Source: Thermoproteales archaeon (GTDB lineage: Archaea > Thermoproteota > Thermoprotei > Thermofilales > B69-G16). Taken from it: a DNA stretch of 51,565 bases. Positions 37,437 to 46,054 of this stretch are shown piece after piece. Each line of letters opens with the position of its first letter. Within the stretch, counting starts at the first letter, position 1. Location: assembly GCA_021161825.1 (NCBI GenBank), contig JAGGZW010000113.1, positions 1-51,565 on the forward strand, read 5' to 3'. Below the pieces are notes generated by a model. The model saw only the letters and a program-made list of their open reading frames with translations, made no database searches and had not been told where the DNA came from. The position numbers were made by a program, and so were the translations under genes.

Positions 37437-38450
37437 CTATATTCTTTTTAATATTTTCTCTAGGACGCTCCACAGGTCTTCTTTTATATAATCCGTCACT
37501 TCCATTTTTCGGCGATCTCTCCTGATAATCACCCTCCTACTTGGATCTTCGACAATTTTCCCTATTTTCGAAGCTCTTATACCTTCCTTTTCAAGATTTT
37601 TTATTATTTTTTCAGTCGATTCTGCTGGCGATACGATCAGCAAGCTTCCTGAACTAATTGTTGTTAACGGATCTGCTTTTACAACATCTAGAATGATTTC
37701 TGTCTCCGGTAGAATTATCATACTTTCCTCGTATGCTACAAAGCCGTAGCCAGATGCAAGCGACAATTCCAGCAACCCGTTTGCTACACCTCCTTCCGTC
37801 GGATCGTGCATTGAGTGAACCTCGCCACTATTAATCGCTATTAACGCGTCTTTCACCACGCTTATCTGCTCTGATAAAGCCTTCGCTCTCTGAAGAACCT
37901 GCCCACTAACCTTATCTTTTAAATAGTCATACAACTCGTTCGCTATTATCGAAGTCCCCTCTATAGCTACGCCCTTTGTCAAGATTATATCGTCTCCCGG
38001 TCTACAGTTTTTCGTCGTAACGTATTTCGTTTTTTCAACTTCTCCAAGCGCTGTCATCGATATTATCGGCCTGTTTAAACCCAGCGTGAACTCGGTATGT
38101 CCACCTACGATACATGCATCTAGCTCATCAACCGCCTTTCTCATATCTCTAAAAATCTCCTCCACCCGATCTTCCCAACCTAATGGAAGCATAATAACCG
38201 GAAGGAACCAAATCGGCCTAGCACCTCTAGTCGCTATATCATTAGCCACAATGTGCACAGCATACCATCCTATCCTCGTCACCGCACCAGTTATAGGATC
38301 TGAATGTATCACAAGCAGCTTATCACCAATATCTATCAACGCCGCATCTTCACCTATTTGAGGACCCGTCACAATTCTAGGATCGTCCTTCCTTACTATA
38401 CTCAAGCATTTTTCTAATAAATCTGGAGGTAGCTTACCCTCAATCAACAA
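37437..38450 (-). CDS. HypE/AIR synthase-related (PurM-like) protein
   Basis: A 337-residue PurM-fold protein: IGEDAALIDIGDKLLVIHSDPITGA, then NDIATRGARPIWFLPV and VGGHTEF, with MHDPTEGG in the C-terminal half, as in HypE and archaeal AIR synthase-related proteins. ATP binding is expected. No hydrogenase or Hyp genes are present, so hydrogenase maturation is not assumed. Tandem TTG codons are the possible starts, overlapping the end of the broken ECF gene. Confidence 0.82.
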   Translation of the reverse strand: MLIEGKLPPDLLEKCLSIVRKDDPRIVTGPQIGEDAALIDIGDKLLVIHSDPITGAVTRIGWYAVHIVANDIATRGARPIWFLPVIMLPLGWEDRVEEIFRDMRKAVDELDACIVGGHTEFTLGLNRPIISMTALGEVEKTKYVTTKNCRPGDDIILTKGVAIEGTSIIANELYDYLKDKVSGQVLQRAKALSEQISVVKDALIAINSGEVHSMHDPTEGGVANGLLELSLASGYGFVAYEESMIILPETEIILDVVKADPLTTISSGSLLIVSPAESTEKIIKNLEKEGIRASKIGKIVEDPSRRVIIRRDRRKMEVTDYIKEDLWSVLEKILKRI

Positions 38451-39155
38451 ACAACACCCTATACTGCTTAAGCACTTTTTTCAAAGTCGAATATAAGGGT
38501 ATTGCCCCAATAGTTCCTACAACGGCTTGACCATTGTTAAATGGCACCTCCGCAAGCGCAGCCACGTTTAAGATAAATGTCTCATACAGGTAGTATCCTA
38601 TACACCATAAAAAATCCTCCCGTAAGAGTTGAAACCACAAGAGATGTTGTCTCGCCTAGCTTGTAAAGTAAAATAGCTATGAAAATTACAACTATCAGCG
38701 CGTACAAAATCATGCTTGGCATGCTTAGCGTGAATATTTCATAGGAACCTATTGCAAACGTAAACGTTAATGTTCCACCGTATAGAATCGTCCAAAGCCC
38801 GGTAAATACCACAAGCAGTGAAAAGTTCACGAGCAGGCTTGACGCTCTACTTTCAAACCTTGGAAGTTTTCTAGATAGATAGCCTACTATAAAACCTTTC
38901 CACTCCTTTAATTACAGCGTGGCAGGAGCATAAACGTAATATCCCGCACATGTCCGCTAGTGCCGAGCCCACTTCACCAGCTATACACCCTACCGTAGGC
39001 CCAAACAATAGCGTGGCCATATATACCACGATTTCGCCCAAGTTGAAATATCCTTGAGTTTCTGGAATGCTGATTTGAAAACCAACAGTCGTTAAAGCTA
39101 TCAATGCCGTGAAAACAACCGTTATAGATATAGTCTTTGAATCCAATTTTAGCAT
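38440..39155 (-). pseudogene. ECF transporter S component, broken by about four frameshifts
   Basis: The N-terminal part (ITVVFTALIALTTVGFQISIP, LGEIVVYMATLLFGPTVG) is a typical ECF substrate-binding (S) membrane protein. Four joins are needed to read it through: near 38942 (C-G then YYVYAPATL), near 38913 (back to VIKGVER), near 38895 (to FIVGYLSRKLPRF...) and near 38584 (LPV then YETFILNVAALAEVPF). The rebuilt protein is about 235 residues and ends at TGA 38440. An AAGGAGCTG ribosome site precedes ATG 39155. Neighbouring long genes are intact, so decay is more likely than sequencing error. Confidence 0.72.
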
Positions 39156-39214
39156 GTCAGCTCCTTGGATGGTTATTAGACTAGAAAATAAAAAATAGTA
39201 TTCAAATTAGAATA

Positions 39215-40600
39215 TTATCTAGATTTTAGTTTTTTAACAACCTTCAAACCCTTTTCTGTGATTACGTAGATTTTCCTATCAGGGAAAGAAAGCTTTCTTA
39301 TTAAACCCAGTTCTTCCAATCTTTTCAAGTGATAGTACACGGCGGGTTTTGAAATATTATACTTTTCAGCCAGCCATCTCCATATTGCATAACCATGAGA
39401 TTCGTTCTCCGATAATAAGCTGAGAATTCTAAGGCTTGTTTTGCCAATATGTGGCAGTGTTTTTCTATCGTCCATCTCCAGTATTCTCAAAAGCGTTTGA
39501 GGATGTTTTATGCCAGCACCAGTAGCTATTAGCACTACTACCTCGTCTCTATCCACAATCTTTTCCTCAAGTAGTTTTTTTAAGCCAGCGACAACAGCGG
39601 CCGAGGCTGTTTCGACGAGTAACCCCTCGTATTTCGCCAGCATCTTCAAGCTATCGACTATGTCCGCGTCGTCGACAGCTACGGCGTAGCCACGGCTATC
39701 CCTTAAAGCTTTCAAGACATCTTTTCCTCTCAACGGATACTTTACCAATAATTCTCTCGCGATAGTATAGCATTCTTTGCATTCTACAGGCTTTTCCAAT
39801 CCCATTTCAAAAGCATCCACTATGGGCTTACAACCCGAAGCCTGAACTCCAACGATCCTCGGCAGTTTTTCAATAAATCCAAAACGCTTCAATTCATTAA
39901 ATCCTTTCCATATGGAAAACGCTAGAACACCATGGCCTACCGGAATAACGACAACGTCAACCTCGCTTAAATCCTCAAATAATTCGAAGGCTATAGTCTT
40001 ATAGCCTTCGACCAGAAAAGGATCTTTTGGAGTAACATTGTAAGCGCCCGCTTTCGCTTTCTTAAATCTACGAACTTCACCGCCAAAAAATACTACTTGG
40101 TATAATTTTTCAATTTGAGGATGATCCTCAAAATTTACAGTTAATTTTAAACCAGAAGCAGCGGCGTAAGCCGCTAAGGAAGCGGCTATGTCGCCACCAG
40201 TAAAAGACCATAGTTCTCTAAAGCCATAATGCAATGCAGCAGCAGCGACCACGGCAGCCCCCCTATCCGTGAAGGCGCCTGTAGGATTTGTTCTTTCATC
40301 TTTTATAAACAGGTTTTTTAATTTGAAAACCTGTCTTAACCTTTTGGCTTTACTAAGAAAAGTCCCTCCCTCGCCCAAAGTTGTTTTTTGAGAAAAATCA
40401 GGTAATAAAGAAGAATACCGCCACACTCCGGCTGATTTTCCGGAAAGATTAAGGGTATTATTGAGATCAATGTTATATTCAAGAGATATAGCTTCATTGC
40501 AAACTTCGCAACTTGTGTAAAATCCCTTGATAAAATTTTTCGACCAGCCGCATTTATCGCATTTATAGTATAATCTTTTTTCTTTAAAGCTCATAGACAT
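39215..40600 (-). CDS. Threonine-synthase-like protein lacking the PLP lysine, fused to a winged helix
   Basis: A 461-residue protein. A zinc ribbon (Cys14, Cys17, Cys31, Cys34) and a fold-type II PLP-enzyme body follow the archaeal threonine synthase plan. The lysine motif NPTGSFKDRG is NPTGAFTDRG here: Thr111 stands where the PLP-binding Lys should be. STGN is also altered to FTGGD. Residues about 385-461 form a PadR-like winged helix (GYAIWRWLAEKYNISKPAVYYHLKRLEELGLI). I infer a ligand-sensing transcription regulator. A 12-bp palindrome lies 11 nt before the start. Confidence 0.82.
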   Translation of the reverse strand: MSMSFKEKRLYYKCDKCGWSKNFIKGFYTSCEVCNEAISLEYNIDLNNTLNLSGKSAGVWRYSSLLPDFSQKTTLGEGGTFLSKAKRLRQVFKLKNLFIKDERTNPTGAFTDRGAAVVAAAALHYGFRELWSFTGGDIAASLAAYAAASGLKLTVNFEDHPQIEKLYQVVFFGGEVRRFKKAKAGAYNVTPKDPFLVEGYKTIAFELFEDLSEVDVVVIPVGHGVLAFSIWKGFNELKRFGFIEKLPRIVGVQASGCKPIVDAFEMGLEKPVECKECYTIARELLVKYPLRGKDVLKALRDSRGYAVAVDDADIVDSLKMLAKYEGLLVETASAAVVAGLKKLLEEKIVDRDEVVVLIATGAGIKHPQTLLRILEMDDRKTLPHIGKTSLRILSLLSENESHGYAIWRWLAEKYNISKPAVYYHLKRLEELGLIRKLSFPDRKIYVITEKGLKVVKKLKSR

Positions 40601-40610
40601 ACTAACAACC

Positions 40611-40622
40611 CTGAATATTCAG
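40611..40622. promoter_or_regulatory. Palindrome upstream of the threonine-synthase-like regulator
   Basis: CTGAATATTCAG is a perfect 12-bp palindrome 11 nt before the ATG of the winged-helix fusion gene. It may be an autoregulatory operator. A related half-site arrangement (ATTC-N6-GAAT) lies at about 39190-39206 before the ECF gene. Confidence 0.4.
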
Positions 40623-40745: not shown

Positions 40746-41579
40746 TTATCCTTTAATTGTTCCTCCAACCACGCCTCTCAAATAATACTTCTGTAGTAAA
40801 GCAAACACTAGCAAAGGCATAGACATGGCGAGCACGGAAGCTGCGGCCATATGATCCCATCTTATAAAATACCTCCCTTTGAGCATAGGTATAGTCTGCG
40901 TTACAACGAATTTATCTGGCGTAGCTAAAAGCACCAGCGCGAAGAAGAAATCATTCCATACCCAATTAAACTGTAGAGTTGCTATTGACACTAGCGCTGG
41001 CAAAGATATAGGCAAGACTATCCTGAAAAATATCTGGATATCAGATGCTCCGTCAATACGCGCTGCCTCTTCTATCTCAATCGGCAGCGTCATAAAGAAG
41101 TTTCTTAAAAACAGTATGATCCAGGGAAGGCCAAAGGCAGAATGAAGCAATATAAGACCCGTATGTGTATTCCAGAGACCAAGATTTACTTCAAGTAGAA
41201 AGACAGGAAGTATCACCATTTGCTGAGGCAGGCTCATGAAAACAACGATGGTTAAAAAAAGTAAATCTCTCAGAGGAAAGCGAAATCTCGAAAAACCGTA
41301 TGCCGCTAATGAAGCAACTAATATTGGTATAATAGTTGATGGTATCGCGATAATGAAAGAATTCACAAATGCACGTCCGATAGGCGCAGTTCTATAATTC
41401 CATACGTAAACGTAATTTTCCAACGTTAAGGTTAATTTCTCTATATTCCACCATCCACTCACAATTTCCTCGTAGGGTCTAATTGAAGTTACGAAAATAC
41501 CTACAAATGGAATTATCCAGATCAGTGATATTGCCCAAGCTATCGCATGGACTATAATTGTTTCCTTCCGCAGCTTCAT
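40746..41579 (-). CDS. Sugar ABC transporter permease (MalG-like)
   Basis: A 277-residue binding-protein-dependent permease with six predicted membrane segments and the EAA loop EEAARIDGASDIQIFFRIVLPISLPA (about residues 165-190), which docks the ATPase. It overlaps the end of the MalF-like gene by 4 nt. No malK-type ATPase gene lies in the window, so a shared ATPase is likely. Confidence 0.93.
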   Translation of the reverse strand: MKLRKETIIVHAIAWAISLIWIIPFVGIFVTSIRPYEEIVSGWWNIEKLTLTLENYVYVWNYRTAPIGRAFVNSFIIAIPSTIIPILVASLAAYGFSRFRFPLRDLLFLTIVVFMSLPQQMVILPVFLLEVNLGLWNTHTGLILLHSAFGLPWIILFLRNFFMTLPIEIEEAARIDGASDIQIFFRIVLPISLPALVSIATLQFNWVWNDFFFALVLLATPDKFVVTQTIPMLKGRYFIRWDHMAAASVLAMSMPLLVFALLQKYYLRGVVGGTIKG

Positions 41580-42484
41580 CGCACCACCATATACCTTATA
41601 ATGTAAACGGCAAAGCCGAGAGTAATTAACGTCAATAAAGTAGCTATTGCCGACGCAGTCCCGTAATTTGACGGTATTTTAAAGAAAGCGTCCATATACA
41701 TTTCAAGAGCGAGAACAGTCGAAGCAGCTCCAGGACCTCCAAGCGTGACGACGTAAACTATATCAAAAACCTTTAACGCCCATAGAACGCTCATAGTTAC
41801 GACTACTATAGTCGCTGGTTTCAAGAGAGGAATTATTATCTTCCTAAATATTAAAAAGCCAGACGCTCCATCAACTTTAGCTGCTTCTATTAGTTCTGGG
41901 GGAATAGTTTCGAGGCCAGCAGAATATACTATCATGCTAAATCCAGTCCATATCCAAACAGAACCCAATATTAAAGAGATTAGGGCAGTGTCTGGATAGG
42001 CGGTCCACGTTCTAACAATGTCTCCTAGCCCAACCGCCTTAAGTACGGCATTTAAAATGCCAGCATCGGCGTCGTATATAAAGCGTAGCATGATACCGCC
42101 AACAACCATTGGAGTTACCATGCCGAGGAAAATTATTGATTTTAGTATAGTCCCTCCCTTGACATTTTTAAAAATAACAGCTAGTACAAGCCCTAGAACT
42201 GTAGATAAGGGAACATGTATTAAAATCCATATAGCGTTATGCACAAGTGCTCCATACGGCGGGCCATCCAGTAAAGATCTGCCATAGTTTATTATAGTCT
42301 TCCGCGTGAGAACCTCGACGTAGTTATCTAACCCTATAAATTCTCTTGGCCCACCGCTCCAATCGAGAAAGCTCATATAAATAGTGTAGATCGTCGGCCC
42401 TATCACAAACATAAGTAACATGACAAGAGCCGGAGTTAAGAAAAAAAGAGGGATTTTATATTTTGCCTTTCTCACCTTCGACAC
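41576..42484 (-). CDS. Sugar ABC transporter permease (MalF-like)
   Basis: A 302-residue permease with six or more membrane segments and the EAA loop IEAAKVDGASGFLIFRKIIIPLLKPA. It forms the pore with the MalG-like permease. It starts directly after the binding protein stop and overlaps MalG by 4 nt, forming one operon read leftward. Confidence 0.93.
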   Translation of the reverse strand: MSKVRKAKYKIPLFFLTPALVMLLMFVIGPTIYTIYMSFLDWSGGPREFIGLDNYVEVLTRKTIINYGRSLLDGPPYGALVHNAIWILIHVPLSTVLGLVLAVIFKNVKGGTILKSIIFLGMVTPMVVGGIMLRFIYDADAGILNAVLKAVGLGDIVRTWTAYPDTALISLILGSVWIWTGFSMIVYSAGLETIPPELIEAAKVDGASGFLIFRKIIIPLLKPATIVVVTMSVLWALKVFDIVYVVTLGGPGAASTVLALEMYMDAFFKIPSNYGTASAIATLLTLITLGFAVYIIRYMVVR

Positions 42485-43738
42485 CTAAGCTTTACCGAGA
42501 GTTTTCAGATGGCTTTCTTTTAGATTGTCCAATACAGTATCTAATGCGTCCGGTTGAACCCATAGAAGTTTTAGCTGATCCCAGAACGTTCTCTGGAAAT
42601 CTCCTCCAATAGCATCGTCGAGGTCTGGAACAACCTTGACGGTTTTCATAAAATCTACGACAGCTTTATCCGCTGGCTTGTAAGCATCGGCTGGGACGTC
42701 GGCGTGAGTTCCCAAAAATCCTCCCTGTTCGACCATTATTTTTTGTCCTTCCGGTCCTGCAAGGAACTGTAACAGCTTTTTCGCTTCTTCGGGATGTTCT
42801 GTATATTTTGGTATTATAACCCAGTCTCCGCCCGCTACAACGCCTTTAGCTTCTGGAAACGGGAAGAACCCGAGATCGTTAACGTCCTTAACTTGCGGCA
42901 TCACGCTCATCCAGTTACCCATGAAGTATATTCCATACTTCTCGTTCCATAGCTTGTCTATTTGCGATGTCCATTCATCCGGAGTGCTGAAGTATCCTTT
43001 TGATATCAGATCTGCAAGCTCCTCAAATACAGCCTTAACTTCAGGATCATCGAACGAGATTTCTCCAGAGATTAGCTTCAGCTGAAGCTCCGGGCTTCCA
43101 CGATTTATTATAAACGCCTCAGTCACATCGGATAACGGCCACCCTACGCCGTCTCCGCTGGCTATAGGAGCTTCAATTCCCGGAATGTTCTTTAATTTCT
43201 CCAGCAAGTCTAAAAATTCATCCCATGTTTTTGGAGGAGTCAAGCCATGCTTCTCAAAGAAGGATTTCTTATACCAGAAGCCTGGTTTAGCCCATGCCTT
43301 GAACGGAGCAGCGTATATCTTACCATCGACCGTAACCATATCTATATAATCTTTAGGATACTTGGTTGGATCTATCAAATCCGTTACTTCAAGCAAGTGA
43401 CCAGCTTTCCCCAGCTCACGGATCCAAGCCGGCCAGGGCGCAACAATTAAATCTGCAACTGTTTTCCCAGCAGCAAACTGAGTAGGAATGCCCACCTGTA
43501 AGCCTTCAGTTGTTTGCGATACGTGCTTAACCTTAATGCCTGTTTTCTCTTCAAATGCTTTGAGAGCTTTTAAAAAGTTTTCTTCTTCTGTTCCTCCCCA
43601 AAGGCTGAAAACAACTAGTTCAACTTCTTCTTTAGGCGGAGGAGCAGGTTTCATTACTAACGGAGCGATAACAAAGGTGCCTATCAACAATCCAATAATA
43701 AAAGATGCTATAATACCAACTATTGCCTTTTGTTCCAT
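42485..43738 (-). CDS. Sugar ABC transporter substrate-binding protein (MalE-like)
   Basis: A 417-residue protein. The N terminus MEQKAIVGIIASFIIGLLIG is a membrane anchor or uncleaved signal, followed by a Pro-rich linker (PAPPP) and a family 1 solute-binding domain (ELVVFSLWGGTEEENFLKALKAFEEKTGIKV). Given the neighbours treT and a TrmB-like regulator, trehalose or maltose is the most likely ligand. It is the first gene of the transport operon and divergent from the regulator. Confidence 0.92.
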   Translation of the reverse strand: MEQKAIVGIIASFIIGLLIGTFVIAPLVMKPAPPPKEEVELVVFSLWGGTEEENFLKALKAFEEKTGIKVKHVSQTTEGLQVGIPTQFAAGKTVADLIVAPWPAWIRELGKAGHLLEVTDLIDPTKYPKDYIDMVTVDGKIYAAPFKAWAKPGFWYKKSFFEKHGLTPPKTWDEFLDLLEKLKNIPGIEAPIASGDGVGWPLSDVTEAFIINRGSPELQLKLISGEISFDDPEVKAVFEELADLISKGYFSTPDEWTSQIDKLWNEKYGIYFMGNWMSVMPQVKDVNDLGFFPFPEAKGVVAGGDWVIIPKYTEHPEEAKKLLQFLAGPEGQKIMVEQGGFLGTHADVPADAYKPADKAVVDFMKTVKVVPDLDDAIGGDFQRTFWDQLKLLWVQPDALDTVLDNLKESHLKTLGKA

Positions 43739-43775
43739 TTTATCACCAAATAGTGATACGATTGTAAGATATCTA

Positions 43776-43793
43776 TAAATAATCGATTATTTA
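43776..43793. promoter_or_regulatory. 18-bp palindrome in the divergent malE/trmB promoter
   Basis: TAAATAATCGATTATTTA is a perfect palindrome in the 65-nt gap between the divergent binding-protein and TrmB-like genes. It overlaps TATA-like sequence for both directions, so occupancy would block both promoters. It is the best candidate operator for the TrmB-like protein. Confidence 0.55.
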
Positions 43794-43803
43794 AGTATTA
43801 TGT

Positions 43804-44808
43804 ATGTTATTTTATAAATATGGAGAATTAACTAATGAGCTTAAAAACAAGCTTTCTAGCCTAGGCTTAAGCTCGTATGAAATAAGCGCCTATGTCGCGC
43901 TACTAAAAAGCGGTACTCTAAGCGCGAGCGAACTTGTTAAAAGAACCGGCATCCCCCACAGTAGAGTATATGATATATCGCGGAGACTCAGCGAAAAAGG
44001 CTTAATTGAAATTGTCGATGGAAAACCGAGAAAATTCAAACTTATAGACCCCGATATCGCGCTTCGAGCTTTCGTAGAAAGAGAAAAAAACAAGCTTAAA
44101 AAAATCTGCGATGACGCTCTTAACCTAATAAAACTCGTGACTCTAAGCAGCGGATTAGAAGAAAAGACGACATGGGTAGTTGAAGCCAAGTTCATTGAGA
44201 TAATCCCGCCACTAATAGAAAAAACTGAGTATCAATTATTGCTGGCTGCGCCCGCCATTCTCATTAACAAGCTTAAGGAAAAGCTAGGCATGGCGGCGAG
44301 TAAAGGGGTGAATATTACTACCGTAATTTACGGCGACTCGAAGCTAAAGAGGTACTTTGTCGAGAAGGAAATAGAATTATATATAAGAAAAGCCTCCTCC
44401 CTCAACATTGCCTTAATAGATTCTTCAACAGGGGTTCTCAGCGATCCTCACGTTAACTATTCTATTCTAACAACCGAGCCAATATTTGTAAGAGCTTTAA
44501 TGGATCTATTTTACAGCTCTCTCATCAACACGTCAACGCTAGTTTATAGACCAGCAATTTTAAGGGGTAAGTTTGCGTCAATATGGTCGATAATTCACAA
44601 GCTACAGAAGGGAGAAAAGCTCAGGGTTAAAGGCTTCGAAGTAAAAACTGGTAGAGAGGTTATAGTGGAAGGAGTGGTTAAAAATAAGGTTATAGATAAT
44701 GGAATAGCATCCATTATCCTACAAACAAACAATGGAGTTGTTAAGGTGGGCGGTATAGGCGCGATGCTAGAAGATATTGAAGGATTAGTTTTTGAGATAA
44801 TTTCTTAG
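43804..44808 (+). CDS. TrmB-like sugar-sensing transcription regulator
   Basis: A 334-residue protein. An N-terminal winged helix (LSSLGLSSYEISAYVALLKSGTLSASELVKRTGIPHSRVYDI) is of TrmB type, a coiled linker follows, and a C-terminal sugar-binding domain spans about residues 120-334. TrmB proteins repress trehalose/maltose ABC operons and are relieved by sugar. It is followed by treT after 10 nt and probably controls both divergent units. Confidence 0.9.
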   Translation: MLFYKYGELTNELKNKLSSLGLSSYEISAYVALLKSGTLSASELVKRTGIPHSRVYDISRRLSEKGLIEIVDGKPRKFKLIDPDIALRAFVEREKNKLKKICDDALNLIKLVTLSSGLEEKTTWVVEAKFIEIIPPLIEKTEYQLLLAAPAILINKLKEKLGMAASKGVNITTVIYGDSKLKRYFVEKEIELYIRKASSLNIALIDSSTGVLSDPHVNYSILTTEPIFVRALMDLFYSSLINTSTLVYRPAILRGKFASIWSIIHKLQKGEKLRVKGFEVKTGREVIVEGVVKNKVIDNGIASIILQTNNGVVKVGGIGAMLEDIEGLVFEIIS

Positions 44809-44818
44809 GGGTGTTTGT

Positions 44819-46054
44819 TTGAAAGTTGAAATTAAGAGGGAAAGAAAACTTGAAAATTACGAGAAGATAGCCGTAGAAGAAACTATCTACAATATAAAGC
44901 ATATGGCGGAGAAGCTTAAAGATTTAACAGTCGTACACGTAAACTCTACAGCGTTCGGAGGCGGCGTTGCCGAAATTCTCAGCAGCATGATTCCATTAAT
45001 GAATTCTATCGGTTTGAAAGCTGAATGGGAGGTCATAGAAGCTCCAAGCGAATTTTTTAACATAACAAAGCTTTTCCACCATGGCGTGCAGGGAATGGAA
45101 GTAAAGCTTACAGATGAAATGAAAGAATTTTATCTTAAAATAAACAGGGAAAACGCTGAAAAGCTCGACCTTGACAAAGATATAATCGTCATACATGACC
45201 CACAACCACTCGCGATCAGATACTACAGGAGTAATTGTGGAAAATGGGTATGGAGATGCCACATAGACGCCTCAACGCCCTACAAGCCAGTCTGGGATTT
45301 TGTCATCAATTTCGTCAAGCTATACGATGCGTATATCTTCCATATGGAAGAATACGTTCAACCCGAAATAGACAAGTCTAGAGCATACGTTATAAAGCCT
45401 TCGATAGACCCCTTATCCGAGAAAAATCGAGAAATGAGCAATACAGAGATTGAAAAAGTTCTCGAAAGATACGATGTAAACCCTGAAAAACCTATTTTGA
45501 TACAGGTGGCAAGGTTTGACCCTTGGAAGGACCCCCTAGGCGCAATCGACGTGTATAGAAAGGTTAAGGAGAAAATACCGGATGTGCAGCTCTTGTTTAT
45601 CGCGAGCATGGCGAATGACGACCCGGAAGGATGGATATACTACGAGAAAACAGCAAGACATGCCGGCAACGACTATGATATCCACTTCTTAACAAACATT
45701 GTAGGAGTTGGAGACAAGGAAGTTAATGCTTTTCAGAGAGCGGCTGACGTAGCGCTGCAAATGAGCATTAGAGAAGGGTTTGGGCTTTCAGTTACGGAGG
45801 CTCTGTGGAAAGGTACGCCGGTCGTCGCTAGGGGAGTCGGCGGGATAAAAGTACAGGTTATCAATGGAAAAACGGGCTTTATAATAAAGGGAGTAAACGA
45901 CGCGTCTGAAAAGATTGTATATCTGCTAAAGAACAAGAGCGTGCGCGACGCTTTGGGCAGAAATGGCAGGGAACACGTTAGGAGAAACTTTCTCATAACC
46001 AGACATTTATACGATTATCTCAAACTATTTTCAAAGCTAACAGCTAGAGAATGA
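44819..46054 (+). CDS. treT: Trehalose glycosyltransferring synthase TreT
   Basis: A 411-residue GT4 enzyme. The segment VVHVNSTAFGGGVAEILSSMIPLM near the N terminus and the donor-site region MSIREGFGLSVTEALWKGTPVVA are typical of TreT. It joins ADP/UDP-glucose and glucose into trehalose, reversibly. TTG start with GGGGTG close upstream. Co-transcribed with the TrmB-like gene, in the same arrangement as the Thermococcus trehalose/maltose cluster. Confidence 0.92.
   Translation: MKVEIKRERKLENYEKIAVEETIYNIKHMAEKLKDLTVVHVNSTAFGGGVAEILSSMIPLMNSIGLKAEWEVIEAPSEFFNITKLFHHGVQGMEVKLTDEMKEFYLKINRENAEKLDLDKDIIVIHDPQPLAIRYYRSNCGKWVWRCHIDASTPYKPVWDFVINFVKLYDAYIFHMEEYVQPEIDKSRAYVIKPSIDPLSEKNREMSNTEIEKVLERYDVNPEKPILIQVARFDPWKDPLGAIDVYRKVKEKIPDVQLLFIASMANDDPEGWIYYEKTARHAGNDYDIHFLTNIVGVGDKEVNAFQRAADVALQMSIREGFGLSVTEALWKGTPVVARGVGGIKVQVINGKTGFIIKGVNDASEKIVYLLKNKSVRDALGRNGREHVRRNFLITRHLYDYLKLFSKLTARE

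Follow-up and report, generated by a model that had tools for sequence, protein, structure and literature searches.

A threonine-synthase-like winged-helix fusion as a predicted PLP-responsive regulator of vitamin B6 supply in Archaea

Here we describe a family of archaeal proteins in which a threonine-synthase body, in most members stripped of its Schiff-base lysine, is fused to a C-terminal winged helix, and which we consider, with good confidence, to be PLP-responsive transcription factors controlling the supply of vitamin B6. In alignments the contacts to PLP are kept and those to the synthase substrate are lost; the fusion genes are linked to genes for B6 uptake or synthesis, and a common predicted operator precedes both kinds of target. 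It is also likely, though we hold this somewhat less firmly, that the family represents a second, independent form of PLP-dependent transcription control, in which a lysine-less threonine synthase has become a reversible PLP sensor in Thermoproteota and Asgard archaea and governs both B6 uptake, through an unrecognised archaeal PdxU, and B6 synthesis via one conserved operator. The window, that is, the whole stretch of 51,565 nucleotides from a Thermoproteales archaeon that was analysed, carries a member of this family with an S-component gene as its neighbour and with candidate operators only (Table 1).

The window protein has the architecture that an earlier note, made from the letters alone, had ascribed to it, namely a zinc ribbon, a fold-type II threonine-synthase body and a PadR-like winged helix. 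Pfam places a PALP domain at residues 74-361 (1.9e-52) and PadR (PF03551) at residues 392-455 (1.5e-10; 41.3 bits against a gathering score of 27), and of the 50 relatives aligned, at least 90% keep all four zinc-ribbon cysteines. Its nearest solved proteins are the threonine synthases 2zsj, 2d1f and 1uim, and an AlphaFold2 model built with 50 family sequences (mean pLDDT 90.6) returned 2zsj and 2d1f as the top Foldseek matches, at an rmsd of 2.1-2.5 Å. The replacement of the PLP lysine by Thr111, also claimed earlier, is borne out by the 1uim alignment, from which the numbering was counted and in which T111 lies opposite K61 of Thermus threonine synthase. One reading had to be corrected: the segment FTGGD, taken for an altered phosphate loop, is the Asn loop (N87 of the Thermus enzyme), and the phosphate loop is VPVGHGVL (residues 219-226), opposite VPVGNAGN. 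Asp at position 137 is found in 2 of 120 lysine-less fusions, and close relatives have GGN. Residues N154, S155 and R160 of the Thermus enzyme, which we take to bind the phosphate of phosphohomoserine (residue numbering checked by alignment), correspond to T190, P191 and L196. Judged by its sequence, the window protein has the fold-type II body of a threonine synthase and neither its Schiff-base lysine nor its substrate-phosphate contacts.

Table 1. Positions of the fusion gene, its parts, its neighbours and candidate operators in the window
Feature	Position	Strand	Basis
AIR-synthase/ThiL/HypE-like protein, third gene of the conserved order fusion - S component - AIRS; candidate kinase	37437..38450	-	Pfam, NCBIfam, neighbourhoods
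PF07155 ECF S component (PdxU/HmpT-like), proposed regulated B6 transporter; interrupted	38443..39155	-	Pfam, homology to intact relative
Inverted repeat TATTC-N6-GAATA between fusion and S-component genes; candidate operator	39199..39214	.	sequence; family motif p = 0.37
Threonine-synthase-like / winged-helix fusion, 461 aa	39215..40600	-	ORF, Pfam, AlphaFold2, Foldseek
C-terminal PadR-like winged helix, residues 386-461	39218..39445	-	Pfam, AlphaFold2
Proposed PLP sensor: threonine-synthase-like body of fold-type II (residues 58-380)	39461..40429	-	Pfam, Foldseek, 1uim alignment
Thr111 codon ACG, at the Schiff-base lysine position (K61, Thermus threonine synthase)	40268..40270	-	sequence, alignment
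N-terminal zinc ribbon, residues 10-42 (C14, C17, C31, C34)	40475..40573	-	alignment of relatives
Candidate operator preceding the fusion gene: perfect palindrome CTGAATATTCAG	40611..40622	.	sequence

Searches of Thermoproteota and Asgard genomes, mostly drafts, gave a set of 140 fusions with their neighbourhoods retrieved. The residue at the catalytic position is R in 55, L in 34, K in 18, I in 11, T in 9, M in 5, V in 2 and A, F, N or S in one each, and is unreadable in two truncated gene calls; the lysine is thus replaced in 120 of the 138 readable fusions and kept in 18. All 10 synthases without the winged helix at these loci have K; an eleventh entry first placed with them is a fusion truncated at a contig end, with R. 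Chance loss of the lysine, or a pseudogene, was rejected as an explanation because 120 fusions have the loss and all ten nearby synthases retain the residue. The PLP contacts persist in the lysine-less fusions, with N137 present in 118/120 (98%), T360 in 116/120 (97%) and G224, within the motif G222-x-G224, in 120/120. As a set, the equivalents of N154, S155 and R160 have been lost from the fusions, and this applies to the K-bearing ones as well; N is not among the common residues at 190, nor R among those at 196. Since the PLP contacts are kept and the substrate-phosphate contacts lost, the body is probably still able to bind PLP and no longer able to bind the substrate of the synthase.

In a tree built from the body domain with the catalytic column removed, a branch with SH-aLRT 84 separates the 69 representative fusions from true threonine synthases, and just three changes between K and not-K are required. 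One loss of the lysine and two regains is the simplest reading, several losses being possible on this quick tree; Arg to Lys is a one-base change. Fusions with an intact lysine, which the earlier note had set against its own proposal, do occur (18 of 140), yet they are nested within the Arg clade (Lokiarchaeal-type rows and L149/L157) and have lost the phosphohomoserine-binding residues, so that they resemble additional regulators, in which the lysine may have been regained, and not active synthases. The NCBIfam model PRK05638 (NF004170) spans the whole fusion architecture; the window protein scores 291.9 bits against its cutoff of 421. Members above that cutoff (L240-L243, L120, L117 and L162), which occur in 7 of 300 sampled Thermoproteota genomes, carry Arg at the lysine position together with the winged helix, and for them the equivalog name "threonine synthase" is probably wrong.

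The dominant partner of the fusions belongs to the sequence cluster that also includes the broken ECF gene of the window. In 88 of 89 cases no more than 1.5 kb separates such an S component from the fusion (median gap 55 bp), and there is one among 953 more distant genes; downstream, divergent and convergent geometries are all seen. At 51 of the 140 loci, some of them truncated by contig ends, the retrieved stretch holds no S component. In the window the neighbouring gene, described earlier as a decayed ECF transporter gene, is indeed broken: its homology to an intact relative of the same genus runs through three frames (two frame changes) with one in-frame stop, which may reflect either decay or an error of the draft assembly. 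The fragment still scores 62.1 bits against PF07155 (cutoff 26.7). A second PF07155-like S component of the same genome (G000:C123:4015-4488) is shorter, at about 183 aa, and is unlinked to any fusion.

Against the PDB, the S-component profile has a single match, 4hzu_S (HmpT; E 5.6e-21). The substrate bound to HmpT was identified as pyridoxamine, which had co-purified with it (PMC4860826), and PdxU and PdxU2/HmpT belong to PF07155/COG4720 (PMC9997740). In the archaeal S components Y120, N140 and Q143 of the HmpT pocket are conserved, E41 is E or D, and H84 and Q87 have mostly given way to K and E, so that four of the six pocket positions are unchanged or conservatively replaced across the linked family; many of these proteins also have a longer middle region than HmpT/PdxU2 (4HZU chain S). 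By PF07155 membership and pocket residues, the linked gene is a PdxU/HmpT-type ECF S component for which a B6 substrate is predicted. In genomes of family f16 the operon continues with the gene of an ABC ATPase that has a pair of nucleotide-binding domains, and with a short gene of no assigned family, an arrangement resembling a complete ECF transporter. The window has the order fusion - S component - AIRS in common with some 19 further loci (L119, L121 and L197 among them); the AIR-synthase/ThiL/HypE-like third gene falls under every NCBIfam cutoff and, by its position only, could be a B6-vitamer kinase.

Other neighbours vary. Upstream of the fusion in the window (40746-46054) lie a sugar ABC transporter, a TrmB-type regulator and a trehalose-synthase-like gene, which together look like an ordinary sugar-uptake cluster. 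In family f23 (L143, L144, L152-L154 and L160) the fusion is followed on the same strand by genes resembling UbiX (assigned by profile scan) and UbiD and aconitase X (both read from sequence). GatD/GatE-like genes for Glu-tRNA(Gln) amidotransferase, also read from sequence, directly precede the fusion in several genomes without an adjacent S component (L140, L150, L155, L156, L162 and L166).

The second kind of B6 gene found beside the fusion is the PLP synthase. Where a genome has both genes, pdxS adjoins the fusion in 11 of 24 (3 Thermoproteota, 8 Asgard), a count in which contig ends may hide linkage, as they may in the other adjacency counts; six loci that have no S component show the fusion and pdxS-pdxT (Pfam SOR_SNZ and SNO) in divergent orientation. 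Across 398 Thermoproteota genomes, pdxS is present in 11 of the 97 that carry the fusion and in 175 of the 301 that do not (Fisher 5e-17, a value inflated by phylogeny), and it is rarer with the fusion within each of the four families that vary (f16, f18, f23 and f39). No such anti-correlation appears in the Asgard genomes (13/72 vs 22/124). Neither the window genome, which is 96% complete, nor its sister G002 has a detectable pdxS.

A symmetric 22-bp motif trained on S-component upstream regions, TATATAAGTTnnAACTTATATA, is found at p<0.01 in 66 of the 89 regions, an in-sample count. When a clade was held out, the motif was recovered at the same threshold in 13/18 regions of the K clade, 16/36 of the L/I/T/V/M clade and 3/35 of the R clade, the last figure indicating that the variant of the R clade (e.g. 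TAGTATAGTTACAACTATACTA) differs. In pdxS upstream regions, which lie outside the training set, it occurs in 13 of 22 at p<0.003, ten of them adjacent to the fusion and three unlinked (G125 and G305, of the same genus, and G029). Exact matches were counted too: CCTATATATAGG, usually in the form TATATAnG-N6-CCTATATATAGG, is present in 18/136 fusion upstream regions and 1/1310 control upstream regions of the same loci, and AAGTTNNNACTT in 19/89 S-component upstream regions and 2/1246 controls, the site preceding the S component in the R and K clades. Because divergent pairs use the same intergenic DNA, the adjacent pdxS cases and the fusion upstream regions are not independent counts. Palindromes gave no signal upstream of the R- and K-clade fusions themselves, where the operator precedes the S component instead. 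Taken together, one predicted palindromic operator is found upstream of S components and pdxS alike, including pdxS genes elsewhere in the genome.

The window holds no recognisable copy of this motif (p = 0.37 upstream of the S component, 0.098 upstream of the fusion). The palindrome directly upstream of the fusion, to which the earlier note drew attention, does exist, but it is weak as evidence, since chance alone would place a perfect 12-bp palindrome in about 8% of regions of this kind (11.5/140 in shuffles) and this one is not conserved in same-genus relatives. Together with the frameshifts and the stop in the S-component gene, the lack of a recognisable operator might mean that the window copy is a decaying relic whose regulator may no longer act. 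We regard this as rather unlikely: the reading frame of the regulator is intact and its product shares 64% identity with same-genus orthologues, frameshifts in a draft assembly may be errors, and uptake of B6 should be needed in a genome without pdxS.

The earlier note had read the protein as a ligand-sensing transcription factor recruited from a threonine-synthase pseudoenzyme, a view we retain, and had favoured an amino acid as the ligand, which we do not. A sensor of threonine or a homoserine derivative, regulating threonine synthesis or amino-acid uptake, would suit the descent of its body from threonine synthase, and a PLP-threonine adduct would fit the pocket. In nine f24 genomes (L098, L126, L127, L132, L135-L138 and L194), moreover, a true lysine-bearing thrC adjoins or lies near the fusion on the opposite strand. 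This linkage is confined to one family, whereas the B6 linkage spans two phyla, and a general role in regulating threonine biosynthesis was rejected for that reason. The thrC linkage would fit a PLP sensor too, since bacterial MocR regulons also contain PLP enzymes such as threonine synthase (PMC5320631). The loss of the substrate-phosphate contacts from the body and the position of the operator, before the S component and pdxS, make an amino-acid sensor improbable. Because the fusion adjoins an S component or pdxS-pdxT, the operator is common to both targets and pdxS is missing from most Thermoproteota fusion genomes, PLP is the more likely ligand and vitamin B6 the more likely pathway.

Regulation of another vitamin carried by such S components (HMP/thiamine, lipoate or riboflavin) is a still slimmer prospect. 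PF07155 S components are able to carry several substrates, the ThiL/HypE-like third gene would fit, and some f16 genomes (L240-L243) have lipoate-ligase-like genes, read from sequence and restricted to close relatives, near the fusion - S component - ATPase operon. Set against this are the adjacency to pdxST with its shared predicted operator, HmpT as the sole PDB relative with its pocket residues conserved, and the PLP pocket kept in the sensor body. A moonlighting enzyme with another residue in place of lysine is very improbable despite the 18 members that keep K and the conservation of most pocket residues, given the free variation of the replacement residue (R, L, I, T, M, V and others), the loss of substrate-phosphate contacts throughout the family and, in the window genome, a separate ordinary threonine synthase (NPTGSFKDRGS) on another contig.

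For a PLP-responsive regulator we infer the following mechanism. The threonine-synthase body would retain the PLP pocket without the internal Schiff base, so that PLP would bind reversibly, with no covalent coupling to the protein; the bound form may be a PLP-amino-acid adduct. Binding would shift the C-terminal winged helices of a putative dimer and thereby change its direct occupancy of the palindromic operator. The predicted target is the ECF S component, and hence uptake, in most genomes and pdxST in others, and it would most likely be repressed when PLP is plentiful.

A close parallel exists in Bacteria. PdxR, of the MocR type, likewise joins a winged helix to a sensor body derived from a PLP enzyme and acts on pdxST and/or on pdxU, a B6 transporter of PF07155, often through an intergenic region that it shares with the target (PMC5320631), the same genes that adjacency and the predicted operator link to the fusion. 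MocR proteins combine an N-terminal GntR helix with a fold-type I aminotransferase body, whereas the fusion has a C-terminal PadR-like helix, a fold-type II threonine-synthase body and a zinc ribbon, and in most members has lost the lysine; MocR has been reported as absent from Archaea (PMC5320631). The family is best explained as an archaeal counterpart, in function, of bacterial PdxR, constructed from an enzyme fold that is unrelated. The fusion shares body fold and zinc ribbon with threonine synthase (ThrC) itself, and differs in the missing Schiff-base lysine of most members, the missing substrate-phosphate contacts and the additional winged helix. ThiR is an archaeal enzyme-HTH regulator for thiamine; like the fusion, it combines an enzyme domain with an HTH domain in regulating a vitamin pathway. 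The same holds for RbkR, a bifunctional gene regulator and enzyme for riboflavin (PMC8305020), which provides a precedent for archaeal vitamin regulators derived from enzymes. RbkR is built on another enzyme, serves another vitamin and keeps its activity, whereas catalysis has probably been lost in the fusion. A partial search, limited to open papers, found no description of the fusion as a regulator; one archaeal fusion survey contains another thrC fusion, with cysH as the partner.

B6 transporters have been called unknown in most prokaryotes (PMC9997740). If our interpretation is true, it would identify a regulator of B6 in Archaea together with its operator, and would point to a candidate B6 transporter in many organisms without PLP synthase. 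It would also correct a likely annotation error, that of PRK05638 as "threonine synthase", in a large archaeal family that is currently mislabelled, and would offer a clear, many-times-sampled case of an enzyme turned into a sensor after the loss of its catalytic residue.
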